Source of the DNA: Bacteroidales bacterium
GTDB taxonomy: Bacteria; Bacteroidota; Bacteroidia; Bacteroidales; JAAYUG01
Direction of reading: 5' to 3'
Length of the DNA: 37,172 nt
Assembly (NCBI GenBank): GCA_012517825.1
Contig: JAAYUG010000068.1
Span: 1-37,172, forward strand
Of the stretch, positions 31,343 through 34,380 are shown in pieces (the stretch's first letter is position 1; each line of letters starts with the position of its first letter). The position numbers were made by a program, and so were the translations under genes. Under the pieces are notes generated by a model that worked only from the letters and a program-made list of their open reading frames with translations, was not told where the DNA came from and searched no databases.

Positions 31343-31759
31343 CTATGCTTCCCGGATCTTCTTCAGCAGAAAATCCCTGGATTTCACCCCGACAAACCGT
31401 TCAACCTCCTTGCCGTTTTTGAAAAGAATCATGGTAGGAATGCCACGGATTTTATAAGCAGAAGCAGCTTCGCGGTTTTTATCTACGTCGAGTTTGCCTA
31501 TAATGGCAGTACCGTCGAGTTCATCAGCCAGTTCGTTCAGTACCGGCGCCATCGCCCGGCAGGGAGCACACCATGCAGCCCAGAAGTCGACAAGTACCTT
31601 GCCGTTTTTGATCTGATGCTTGAAATTCCGGTCATCAAGGATTCGGATTTTTTCATTTGAAGGCACCAGCGGCATATTTTTCATCCTCCGGAGGGATAAG
31701 AGGATGTAGAAAACCAGCAAAACAAAAAATACAATAAGAAAAATCAGCGTTTTACTCAT
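31343..31759 (-). CDS. Membrane-anchored thioredoxin
   Basis: A 138-residue protein. One N-terminal membrane helix (residues 5-22) is followed by a short linker and a complete thioredoxin domain with the active site WCAPC (Trp63, Cys64, Cys67) and the cis-proline GIPT. WCAPC differs from the classic WCGPC by one residue. The basic residues after the helix (RRMK) predict that the thioredoxin domain faces the cytoplasm, so it could take electrons from the TrxB encoded just upstream (20-base gap). It is the last gene of the redox operon. Confidence 0.92.
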   Translation of the reverse strand: MSKTLIFLIVFFVLLVFYILLSLRRMKNMPLVPSNEKIRILDDRNFKHQIKNGKVLVDFWAAWCAPCRAMAPVLNELADELDGTAIIGKLDVDKNREAASAYKIRGIPTMILFKNGKEVERFVGVKSRDFLLKKIREA

Positions 31760-31779: not shown

Positions 31780-32733
31780 TTATGCTTCAGCAAGTTCCAG
31801 CTGACGGAGGTTGTGCACATATTGTGCCGCTGCAAGGGCTGCTACCGTACCGTCGCCTACGGCAGTGGTAACCTGACGGAACCGCTTGACCACAGCATCT
31901 CCTGCTGCAAAAACACCCTTGATACCGGTTTCCATATCAGCATTTACGATAATCTCTCCGCGCTCATTCAAAATCTGCTGGTTGCGCAGGAACTCTGTAT
32001 TCGGAACATATCCGATAAAAATGAATACTCCGTCGATCGGCATGTTATAGAGTTCCCCGGTTTTGAGGTTTTTTATATCGACCGATTGCAGGTTTTCGTT
32101 TCCATGAAATGCTGCGATGGTAGAACTGAGGATGAAGCGGATGGACGGATTGCTTCTGGCTTCTTCTATAGCATATTCAAAAGCCTGAAAGTGATCAAAC
32201 TGATGAACAACTGTTACCCTGGAAGCATATTTTGTTAGCGATACAGCTTCTTCGAGGGCAGAATTTCCTCCGCCGACTACAATGATTTCTTTCCCGGTAA
32301 AGAAATCCCCGTCACAGGTGGCACAATATGAAATGCCTTTCCCTCTGAAAGTTTCTTCACCCGGTACACCAAGCTGGCGGGGACGGCCTCCCGGTGCAAG
32401 TATAACAGCTGATGCTTTGTACTCACGGCCGTCAGAAAGCCGTACAGATTTTACCGCGCCTTCCAGCTGCAAATCGCTCACGGAAGAATTGCCGATAATT
32501 TCGCAACCAAAGGATCGGGCTTGTTTCTTCATTATTCCCGACAGCTGATATCCGCTGGTTTTCTCCACTCCCGGATAATTGGCGATCTCATGGGTCAGCA
32601 CCATCTGGCCGCCGACGGTTCCCTCATTTATAATCAATGTCCTGATGCGGGCACGGGAGAGATAAATGCCTGCCGTTAATCCGGCAGGCCCTGCTCCCAG
32701 AACGATCACATCATAGTTTGTATCAGCTTTCAT
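31780..32733 (-). CDS. trxB: Thioredoxin-disulfide reductase-like flavoprotein without the NADPH arginine motif
   Basis: A 317-residue low-molecular-weight thioredoxin reductase. The FAD motif is GAGPAGLTAGIYL (13-25), the redox-active CATC is at 137-140, the NAD(P) glycine motif is VVGGGNSALEEA (152-163), and the C-terminal FAD motif is AAGDAVVKRFRQ. In E. coli TrxB the NADPH 2'-phosphate is held by HRRxxxR; the aligned segment here is HQFDHFQ (177-183), with all three arginines replaced. That points to NADH or another electron donor. The gene sits between a thioredoxin and a thioredoxin-like gene with 16-20 base gaps, so operon membership is clear. Confidence 0.92.
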   Translation of the reverse strand: MKADTNYDVIVLGAGPAGLTAGIYLSRARIRTLIINEGTVGGQMVLTHEIANYPGVEKTSGYQLSGIMKKQARSFGCEIIGNSSVSDLQLEGAVKSVRLSDGREYKASAVILAPGGRPRQLGVPGEETFRGKGISYCATCDGDFFTGKEIIVVGGGNSALEEAVSLTKYASRVTVVHQFDHFQAFEYAIEEARSNPSIRFILSSTIAAFHGNENLQSVDIKNLKTGELYNMPIDGVFIFIGYVPNTEFLRNQQILNERGEIIVNADMETGIKGVFAAGDAVVKRFRQVTTAVGDGTVAALAAAQYVHNLRQLELAEA

Positions 32734-32749
32734 CGTACGTTAACCTTTT

Positions 32750-33106
32750 TTATGCATTTACCGGTACTCCGAATTCCTGGTTCAGAATGGCCTTTACCTG
32801 GTCCATGGTCTGAATGCTCGATGTAGCCTTTACGATTTTTCCGTTTTTGTAGTAAACCGTGAAAGGTAAACCCATAAATCCGCGGCATTCGGGAGCATTT
32901 CGTATTACGTATGCATCGGGATTGTCAAATTCCATATCAAAGAACTTGACATGCGGATATTGGGGTTCCAGTTCTTCCATGATTTCGTAAACGGGAATGC
33001 ACATGGGGCCCATCCGCCCGCAGCAGATCATTACGTTTTCATTTTCGCTGATTACTTTCTGATGCTCAGCAGCACTTTCGATGTGATTTAAATTGGTGTA
33101 CAACAT
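32750..33106 (-). CDS. Atypical thioredoxin-like protein (CGRMGPMC motif)
   Basis: A 118-residue thioredoxin-fold protein. In place of WCxPC it has CCGRMGPMC (Cys28, Cys29, Cys36). A third cysteine, in ECRGFMGLP, lies next to the cis-proline loop. The final strand pattern (TVYYKNGKIVKA) is typical of thioredoxins. The normal first active-site cysteine is displaced, so the redox chemistry must differ (C-x6-C or Cys36 with the ECRG cysteine). I believe similar proteins sit beside trxB in other Bacteroidales, from memory. A function as substrate or modified partner of the neighbouring reductase is inferred from context. Confidence 0.85.
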   Translation of the reverse strand: MLYTNLNHIESAAEHQKVISENENVMICCGRMGPMCIPVYEIMEELEPQYPHVKFFDMEFDNPDAYVIRNAPECRGFMGLPFTVYYKNGKIVKATSSIQTMDQVKAILNQEFGVPVNA

Positions 33107-33123: not shown

Positions 33124-33540
33124 TTATTCGGTAACCTGTATTTCATAGGTAAGTTCCATGGCCTTCCGGTAGGCGGCTGAAACTCCGCAGTACCTGTCCT
33201 GCGACAGGTCGACAGCTTTCTTCAGTTTCTCCATGTCGAGGTTCTTCCCATGGAATTTATAGATAATGTGCATTTTGGTGTAATGTTTCGGGTGCTCTTC
33301 TGTACTCTCGGCAACTACTTCAATGGAAAACTTTTCGGGTTCCGAGCGCATTTTTTTCAGTATGGAAACTACATCCATTCCGGTACAACCTGCCAATGAA
33401 GTGAGCATAAGCTCCTTGGGCCGAGGACCGGAATCTTCCCCACCTACATCCTCAGAAGCATCCATAATCACATGGTGCCCGCTTACAAGGGCATCGAATT
33501 TCATATTTCCCAGCCAGGAAGTTTCTTGTTTTACTTGCAT
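33124..33540 (-). CDS. OsmC/Ohr-family peroxide-related protein
   Basis: A 138-residue OsmC-like protein. The two family cysteines are present: Cys in SLAGCTGMDVVSIL and Cys in DRYCGVSAAY. The former helix opens with the usual glycine-rich PRPKELMLTSLAGC block. Family members reduce organic hydroperoxides or persulfides with a thiol donor. Being first in an operon with two thioredoxin-fold proteins and a TrxB fits reduction by that system. It lacks the fused C-terminal extension seen in some OsmC proteins. Confidence 0.9.
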   Translation of the reverse strand: MQVKQETSWLGNMKFDALVSGHHVIMDASEDVGGEDSGPRPKELMLTSLAGCTGMDVVSILKKMRSEPEKFSIEVVAESTEEHPKHYTKMHIIYKFHGKNLDMEKLKKAVDLSQDRYCGVSAAYRKAMELTYEIQVTE

Positions 33541-33561
33541 ATTCGTATAAATTTAAGGTTA

Positions 33562-33569
33562 CAAAAGTA
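33562..33569 (-). promoter_or_regulatory. TAnnTTTG -7 element for the OsmC/thioredoxin operon
   Basis: On the minus strand TACTTTTG runs from 33569 to 33562, 21 bases before the OsmC ATG. Confidence 0.7.
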
Positions 33570-33580
33570 GGCCGTTTCAG

Positions 33581-33616
33581 CGGTTTATCCGCGAATTATT
33601 GGTTTGCGGAATACCG
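33581..33616. promoter_or_regulatory. Imperfect inverted repeat between divergent promoters (possible operator)
   Basis: CGGTTTATCCGC (33581-33592) and GCGGAATACCG (33606-33616) are inverted copies apart from a shifted T/A. The first arm covers about -26 to -37 of the OsmC promoter. Confidence 0.5.
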
Positions 33617-33624
33617 TCTTTCAA

Positions 33625-33638
33625 TTGATATTAAACAA
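33625..33638. promoter_or_regulatory. FNR/CRP-like half-palindrome upstream of the regulator gene
   Basis: TTGATATTAAACAA differs by one base from the TTGAT-N4-ATCAA FNR consensus. Its centre lies about 41 bases before the transcription start predicted from the -7 element at 33659, the class II activator position. Confidence 0.45.
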
Positions 33639-33658
33639 TTATTTTATTGATTTAGTTC

Positions 33659-33666
33659 TACCTTTG
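33659..33666 (+). promoter_or_regulatory. TAnnTTTG -7 element for the Crp/Fnr regulator gene
   Basis: TACCTTTG, 18 bases before the ATG at 33685. No good -33 TTTG is present, which would fit an activator-dependent promoter. Confidence 0.7.
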
Positions 33667-33684
33667 TCCTGAAAAAGATTCCTG

Positions 33685-34380
33685 ATGAAAGCGATAACTG
33701 AAACCGACAAGGAATACATCTGCGAGATACAGGCTCCCTGTTTTCAGGATCTCAGTCAGGAGGAAGTGGCGCTGATCAGGGCAGGTAAAACCCAGATCCT
33801 TTTTCATCGTGGCGAAAATCTGACCAAGCAGGGGTTTTTTGCCTCATCTGTCTTATTTATCATCAGTGGTTACGCCAGGTTATTTATCGAAGGGAACAAC
33901 GGCAGAAACCTTAACCTTGCTGTTTTGGTTCCGGGTGACTTTGCCGGGATTTCTGCCCTGTTTGGTCAGAACAAGTTTCCTTACTCCATCACTGCTCTTT
34001 GCGATACGCAGGTTCTGCTGATTGAGTCGGGCATTCTGGAAAAAGTGCTCCGGCAGAATTCTTCCTTTGCATGGCATATTGGTGCCAGGAATCATTCTTT
34101 TGACAATTTGCTGAGGGCAGCCCTCTACTCTGTTGCTTTTCTTCAGATGAACGGCAGGGTCGCTTCGGTTTTGCTGTATCTTGACAGTCTTGTCAGGGAA
34201 GGCCATGATGTATTTCCTCTTCTTTCAAGAAAGGACATTGCTGAATTTGCCGGACTTTCAACCGAAAGCACAGTAAAGATTCTCAAATCGTTTGAGAAAG
34301 ACGGACTGATTCAGTTGCGTGAAAAATCGTTAACCATTCTGAAACCCGAAAACCTGAAAGAAATCAGCAGGTTGGGGTAA
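33685..34380 (+). CDS. Crp/Fnr-family transcriptional regulator
   Basis: A 231-residue regulator. Residues about 20-130 form the cyclic-nucleotide-binding-type beta-roll (VLFIISGYARLF, VLVPGDFAGISALFG). A dimer helix follows, then a winged helix-turn-helix near 180-215 (LSRKDIAEFAGLSTESTVKILKSFEKDGLI), whose recognition helix keeps Glu but has Lys where CRP and FNR have Arg. Cysteines occur at 13, 19 and 106, partly echoing the FNR cluster layout but with one fewer. The gene is divergent from the OsmC/thioredoxin operon across 144 bases, so regulation of that operon and itself is likely. Signal (redox, oxygen or other) is inference. Confidence 0.9.
   Translation: MKAITETDKEYICEIQAPCFQDLSQEEVALIRAGKTQILFHRGENLTKQGFFASSVLFIISGYARLFIEGNNGRNLNLAVLVPGDFAGISALFGQNKFPYSITALCDTQVLLIESGILEKVLRQNSSFAWHIGARNHSFDNLLRAALYSVAFLQMNGRVASVLLYLDSLVREGHDVFPLLSRKDIAEFAGLSTESTVKILKSFEKDGLIQLREKSLTILKPENLKEISRLG

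Follow-up and report, generated by a model that had tools for sequence, protein, structure and literature searches.

A predicted shared control region of tandem FNR-type boxes between a Crp/Fnr-family regulator gene and a divergent thiol-redox operon in Bacteroidota

The persulfide-sensing regulators CstR, SqrR, BigR, and FisR control rhodanese, CoA-disulfide reductase, or related sulfur genes by means of cysteines, and FLP of Lactobacillus casei is a Crp/Fnr protein without a cluster that operates through a dithiol-disulfide switch. In Bacteroidota, thioredoxin control has been described, in PMC12596196 among other places, in terms of OxyR, PerR, or ECF sigma factors. For the Crp/Fnr regulators HcpR and HcpR2, the published motif is TTGACnnnnGTCAA or GTAACnnnnGTTAC, with hcp as the target (PMC1274295), and excerpts of two further papers link PgRsp and CrpPg of Porphyromonas gingivalis, also Crp/Fnr regulators, to redox homeostasis (PMC6955866, PMC12040651). 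For the promoters themselves, a TAnnTTTG −7 element at −12 to −5 has been mapped in Flavobacterium (excerpts of PMC9723704), and all box centers given below rest on this borrowed convention.

The locus considered here lies in a 37,172-nucleotide stretch of DNA, referred to as the window, from a 3.3-Mb Bacteroidota genome, with the regulator and redox genes at the right end of the contig. The regulator gene (33685..34380, plus strand) encodes a 231-residue Crp/Fnr-family protein with cNMP_binding and HTH_Crp_2 domains. A 144-bp spacer separates it from a divergent operon on the minus strand, which begins with an OsmC-family gene (33124..33540) and continues with a 118-residue thioredoxin-like protein carrying the motif CGRMGPMC, which we named TlpX118 (32750..33106), a thioredoxin reductase (31780..32733; TIGR01292 above cut-off), and a thioredoxin (31343..31759; TIGR01068 above cut-off). 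A search of our literature set, restricted to open-licence papers, found no published description of this regulator or operator.

A Pfam search of TlpX118 gave no match. Its unusual CGRMGPMC takes the place of CxxC, and the same or a near variant is present in 48 of 58 relatives. Among relatives, TlpX118 is the most frequent first gene of the divergent operon, the commonest orders being TlpX118-Trx-CoA-disulfide reductase/rhodanese and TlpX118-TrxR-Trx. Further neighbors found in operons of the clade are a sulfide:quinone reductase-like protein, a glutaredoxin, a sulfur transporter, and an octaheme tetrathionate reductase-family cytochrome. At four loci (L062, L064, L078, and L091), a second Crp/Fnr gene and such a cytochrome follow the regulator locus, accompanied in three of the four by sulfur-transport genes, a gene content that suggests a link to sulfur respiration.

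We then placed the individual elements within the spacer. The −7 element of the OsmC/thioredoxin-side promoter, TACTTTTG, occupies 33562..33569 on the minus strand (predicted start about 33557), and that of the regulator promoter, TACCTTTG, occupies 33659..33666 on the plus strand (predicted start about 33671), so that the two opposed TAnnTTTG elements reported in a sequence-only reading of this DNA are where it had put them. Direct reading of the sequence revealed no TTTG 19–21 bases upstream of the regulator's −7 element, which agrees with the same reading's statement that this promoter lacks a −33 TTTG. Box 1, TTGATATTAAACAA, of the form TTGA-N6-WCAA and one mismatch from TTGATnnnnATCAA, lies at 33625..33638. 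Its center is at −39.5 relative to the regulator start, so the earlier placement of an FNR-like box near −41 was about right, and at −74.5 relative to the OsmC start; box 1 begins 63 bp from the start of the OsmC-side −7 element (33562 to 33625). An 8-bp T-rich spacer, TTATTTTA (33639..33646; cTTTTTTa in relatives), leads to box 2, TTGATTTAGTTCTA (33647..33660), centered at −17.5 for the regulator and −96.5 for OsmC. The right half of box 2 is degenerate in the window and merges with the regulator's −7 element.

Counted in the whole window, TAnnTTTG occurs 33 times against 28.5 expected, no excess over chance, and the FNR-like box, with one mismatch allowed, 3 times against 2.87 expected, again at chance level. 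Because single-window motif counts are at chance, the case rests on comparison. The combined element CAAAnnTA-N55-TTGA-N6-WCAA-N8-TTGA, a pattern derived from relatives, has a single occurrence in the window and none in 100 shuffles with up to two mismatches.

Orthologues were gathered from relatives, genome contigs (80 loci), and 393 genomes of the order. A divergent OsmC or TlpX118 gene lies within 700 bp of the regulator in 56 of the 80 orthologue loci. The spacers have diverged strongly apart from one footprint, composed of TTGA-N6-[A/T]CAA, cTTTTTTa, and TTGA, the second TTGA usually continuing as aTTaGATTAACTTTG. The footprint thus consists of two tandem FNR-type boxes 22 bp apart, and in relatives the second box frequently runs into the regulator's −7 element, as it does in the window. 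The exact tandem, TTGA-N6-WCAA-N8-TTGA, is present in 44 of 77 non-redundant upstream regions, against a mean of 0.01 in 100 dinucleotide shuffles; it marks 43 of the 55 syntenic regions and 1 of the 22 non-syntenic ones. A perfect TTGA-N6-TCAA is found in 9 of the 77. Of the 33 regions that lack the exact tandem, 12 are syntenic; by eye, the tandem is off by one letter at L065, L088, L108, and L094, and no clear box pair could be seen at L046 and L101. The count used 77 of the 80 loci, leaving out L042 and L100, which have less than 100 bp upstream, and one near-identical locus; duplicates remain between the genome sets (L039 = L003, L094 = L005, L101 = L006, and L071 = L004).

Phylogenetic footprinting of the spacer in related genomes, the check that the sequence-only reading had proposed, gave a divided answer, in which the FNR-like box was kept as part of the tandem and the second candidate operator, an 11–12-base imperfect inverted repeat, was not conserved. 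In the window itself we found no ungapped repeat of this kind; a gapped match near 33580–33615, seen by eye, has no counterpart in the sequence of a same-genus relative whose regulator is 82% identical. Of the two operators put forward, then, the FNR-like box stands, as one half of a tandem pair, and the inverted repeat is dropped.

Two further features of the spacers were noted. In relatives, a conserved C(A/G)(A/G) at offsets −11 to −9 precedes box 1, weakly represented in the window; its distance to the CAA of box 1 is again 22 bp, which gives the look of an array lengthened by a third half-site. Separately, contig LBTE01000019.1 (L099), filed as candidate division TM6, matches the Bacteroidetes contig L088 in gene order, and the two spacers are very similar; judged by these features, the contig looks misbinned.

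The distances within these loci differ sharply in how well they are kept. Of the 47 tandem loci, 44 have box 1 at 63 bp from the divergent −7 element and 2 have it at 62 bp; the last locus is cut by a contig end. When box 2 was not required, 44 pairs were found at 63, 4 at 85, 2 at 62, and 2 elsewhere; the distance of 85 is one 22-bp box repeat further than 63. Box 1 lies at 29 different distances from the regulator start, ranging from 60 to 292, the divergent gene start lies 18–60 from CAAAnnTA, and the regulator-side −7 element falls at +33 or +34 after box 1 in only 26 of 46 loci. The constancy of the 63 bp, set beside the drift of the other distances, ties the array to the thiol-gene promoter: the tandem keeps its register with the OsmC/thioredoxin-side promoter and not with that of the regulator. 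A candidate site is thus found upstream of a promoter at one fixed helical phase, with other spacings rare, as looked for in a class-I-type arrangement.

This geometry bears on whether the protein might act as a repressor, its occupancy of the array silencing both the regulator promoter, through box 2 over the −7 element, and the divergent operon until oxidation releases it. The overlap of box 2 with the regulator's −7 element in the window would fit such a role, as would the 26 of 46 loci just mentioned. For the thiol operon, however, the boxes at −74.5 and −96.5 lie far upstream of the RNA polymerase footprint, a single fixed helical phase is the usual mark of an activator, and copies of the element unlinked to the regulator keep the identical distance. 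We consider repression unlikely, and activation of the thiol operon remains our preferred reading.

The whole element, CAAAnnTA-N55-TTGA-N6-WCAA-N8-TTGA, was found at 42 sites in 36 of the 393 genomes of the order, and a reversed-pattern control in the same 393 genomes gave 0 matches. Pooling 25 other spacings, all on the short side, gave by eye from the tables 38 matches (7 from one genome), or about 1.5 per spacing against 42 at 63. Box 1 without the second TTGA matched in 144 of 393 genomes, near background, and its reversed control matched too; several of these matches lie in repeatedly similar coding-like sequence. Specificity therefore depends on the tandem. The window's own genome has the full element once, at the window site. 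A second site there, with two mismatches, was rejected because it lies inside mutL, and at three mismatches the reversed control was about equal (5 against 6 matches).

With these results, the notion that the motifs arose by chance in an AT-rich spacer, for which the chance-level counts of the FNR-like box and TAnnTTTG in the window would speak, is already refuted by conservation, fixed spacing, and genome-wide specificity, and we give it virtually no weight. As far as sequence comparison can establish, the region is genuine and has the look of a functional one.

The regulator or a close relative is present in 33 of the 36 genomes with the element and in 49 of the 357 others (82 of 393 overall; Fisher p = 3.5e-22, a value that overstates independence because the site genomes share ancestry). 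Left and right gene tallies around the sites, made by eye, showed that 22 of the 42 adjoin a regulator ORF at least 38% identical, 2 adjoin more distant ones (32–33%), and 18 adjoin none. Thirteen of these 18 precede thiol/sulfur genes: OsmC at three, one of which has the regulator one ORF away; TlpX118 at three; thioredoxin at one; CoA-disulfide reductase at five, four of which are fused to two to four rhodanese domains; and rhodanese at one, about 380 bp from its element site. The other five precede radical-SAM-like, universal-stress-like, and FeMo-cofactor-domain-like proteins and two without a Pfam family; the first two assignments were judged from the printed sequence. The earlier suggestion of a redox-gene control region tied to the regulator is upheld by synteny (56 of 80), fixed geometry, and this co-occurrence (33 of 36).

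At L150 and L169, the element precedes genes that look glutamate-dehydrogenase-like from their sequence and adjoins long ORFs matching the regulator at 32–33%; the two sites lie in two of the three element-bearing genomes without the regulator.

At some loci the same element adjoins relatives that have all four FNR cysteines, so that the operator alone does not identify the sensor chemistry. Three 63-bp elements with perfect TTGA-N6-TCAA boxes (L157, L176, and L177; G331:C91) are found within 25 kb on a single contig, not far from an FNR-type relative with four cysteines, and this cluster may represent an ancestral form of the system. The four-cysteine neighbors, together with seven further Crp/Fnr-like matches in the window genome, would also suit the idea that the conserved sequence serves another DNA-binding protein, such as a different Crp/Fnr paralogue, and that the encoded regulator is a mere neighbor. 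Against this stand the presence of the regulator or a close relative in nearly all element genomes, the synteny across the orthologue loci, and the distance of the seven other matches, all of which are at most 29% identical to the regulator. We regard this idea as quite improbable, and the encoded regulator is taken below as the predicted binding protein.

Membership of the regulator in the Crp/Fnr superfamily is apparent from matches to PF00027 and PF13545 above cut-off and from fold matches; the structure predicted for the protein, with a mean pLDDT of 87.8, resembles solved Crp/Fnr structures, holo-FNR and P. gingivalis 2GAU among them. The recognition helix is E194-S-T-V-K198. Cysteines were counted in 81 sequences, the window protein and its 80 orthologues; two other comparisons used 80 sequences, leaving out L100, which lacks its first codon. 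Cys-13 is present in 80 of 81 and Cys-19 in all 81, Cys-137 in 64, Cys-108 in 68, and Cys-106 in 2, about a tenth of the sequences having no cysteine at 106 or 108. Cys-13, Cys-19, and Cys-106 are indeed found in the window protein, as previously listed; with Cys-106 so rare and most others having Cys-108, the three find no support as an Fe-S set. Residue 10, at the place of FNR's first cysteine, is Asp or Glu in 78 of 81, and the place of the fourth (window position 111) is never cysteine in the family rows examined, being hydrophobic or aromatic instead. Of the four FNR cysteine ligands, then, two are kept, Cys-13 and Cys-19. One orthologue, L092, has lost Cys-13 and kept the boxes.

A 40%-identical paralogue aligns with Aliivibrio fischeri FNR with its cysteines at matching places, and in a tree of 53 chosen rows with a midpoint root, the regulator family forms a clade (100/99 support) nested among four-cysteine proteins. 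These relationships indicate that the regulator family is derived from four-cysteine FNR-type relatives and has retained two of the cluster cysteines.

A classical four-cysteine cluster was rejected on the cysteine pattern, and we saw no support for haem or NO sensing as in HcpR. A modified cluster deserves more consideration, in which an FNR-type Fe-S sensor with the altered ligands Asp/Glu-10, Cys-13, Cys-19, and Cys-108 (or Cys-106) would report O2, NO, or iron status, with the operon as a side target. The near-constant acidic residue 10, the 68 sequences with Cys-108 and 2 more with Cys-106, the close relatives with the full four-cysteine set, and the match of the modeled fold to holo-FNR entries would all be compatible with it. 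The absence of cysteine from position 111 throughout the family rows and the tenth of sequences with none at 106 or 108 argue the other way, and the genes concerned serve thiol/sulfur repair, not respiration or Fe-S assembly. Such a cluster, toward which the Fe-S spectroscopy proposed in the sequence-only reading pointed, is in our judgment a serious alternative, though the less likely one.

We favor a thiol or persulfide signal because of the conserved cysteine pair and the gene content; the two features that would be sought in a thiol or persulfide sensor, a conserved cysteine pair and thiol/sulfur target genes, are both present here, the genes as predicted targets. As only two cluster cysteines are kept, the regulator probably senses the thiol or sulfane-sulfur redox state via Cys-13 and Cys-19, perhaps assisted by Cys-108 (Cys-106 in the window protein).

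In the mechanism that we propose, a regulator dimer would bind box 1 and also box 2, which lies two helical turns away. Bound at box 1, near −74.5, the regulator would most likely serve the OsmC/TlpX/TrxR/Trx promoter as a class-I-type activator, contacting RNA polymerase there from upstream. At the regulator's own promoter, box 1 near −39.5 might replace the −33 element and allow class-II-like activation, and box 2, which covers the −7 element, could provide negative feedback at high occupancy. The tandem is seldom found upstream of a regulator that is not adjacent to the operon (1 of 22), so self-regulation looks like a by-product of the shared spacer; autoregulation, proposed earlier as part of a redox switch, is thus more readily seen as a shared-spacer effect than as a core function. 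On the whole, we think it reasonably likely that the spacer is a shared control region at which the regulator would bind, activate the thiol operon, control itself, and respond to the thiol/sulfane-sulfur redox state.

A wider scenario can be offered tentatively, and we hold it somewhat below an even chance. Within Bacteroidota, one Crp/Fnr clade may have retained the ancestral operator but given up FNR-type Fe-S sensing, detecting disulfide or persulfide stress through a cysteine pair instead. Thioredoxin, OsmC, and CoA-disulfide reductase-rhodanese genes would then be driven by tandem FNR boxes locked at 63 bp from the promoter, and the same array would tune the regulator where the spacer is shared. 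If true, thiol/sulfane-sulfur homeostasis in a large, mostly uncultured Bacteroidota group would gain a named regulator with its operator and targets, and the system would provide a test case of an FNR-type Fe-S sensor that loses cluster ligands with operator and promoter geometry unchanged, and establish a strict promoter-spacing rule for activators working with Bacteroidota RNA polymerase.

Among described systems, FNR of E. coli and A. fischeri shares with this regulator the Crp/Fnr fold, a TTGA-N6-TCAA-type box, and two N-terminal cluster cysteines at matching places, and a candidate FNR-type box near a promoter is found here as TTGA-N6-WCAA conserved at fixed spacing. The present system differs from FNR in having two of the four cluster cysteines, a 22-bp tandem common to divergent promoters, and thiol/sulfur-repair targets. 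CstR, SqrR, BigR, and FisR belong to other protein families with other operators, the likeness here lying in the sulfur genes and the cysteines, and FLP differs in its cysteine positions and is distant in lineage. Among solved structures, CrpPg (2GAU) is the best match by sequence, and it is 18% identical in the structural alignment; in the excerpts of their descriptions consulted (PMC6955866, PMC12040651), no such operator or thiol operon was found for PgRsp or CrpPg, PgRsp being set apart by description only. The −7 elements are like those of Bacteroidota TAnnTTTG promoters (excerpts of PMC9723704), with box 1 occupying the −33 place in the regulator promoter. HcpR and HcpR2 of Desulfovibrio, Bacteroides, and Porphyromonas are likewise Crp/Fnr-family proteins, present in Bacteroidota and often encoded beside a target gene, and the tandems of TTGA-N6-ACAA and the thioredoxin/sulfur targets seen here depart from their motif and regulon as far as the accessible text describes them (PMC1274295). 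Judged by sequence and gene content, the array appears to resemble an FNR-family activator system, yet its regulator falls short of the four-cysteine set, and its motif and predicted targets differ from those of HcpR.
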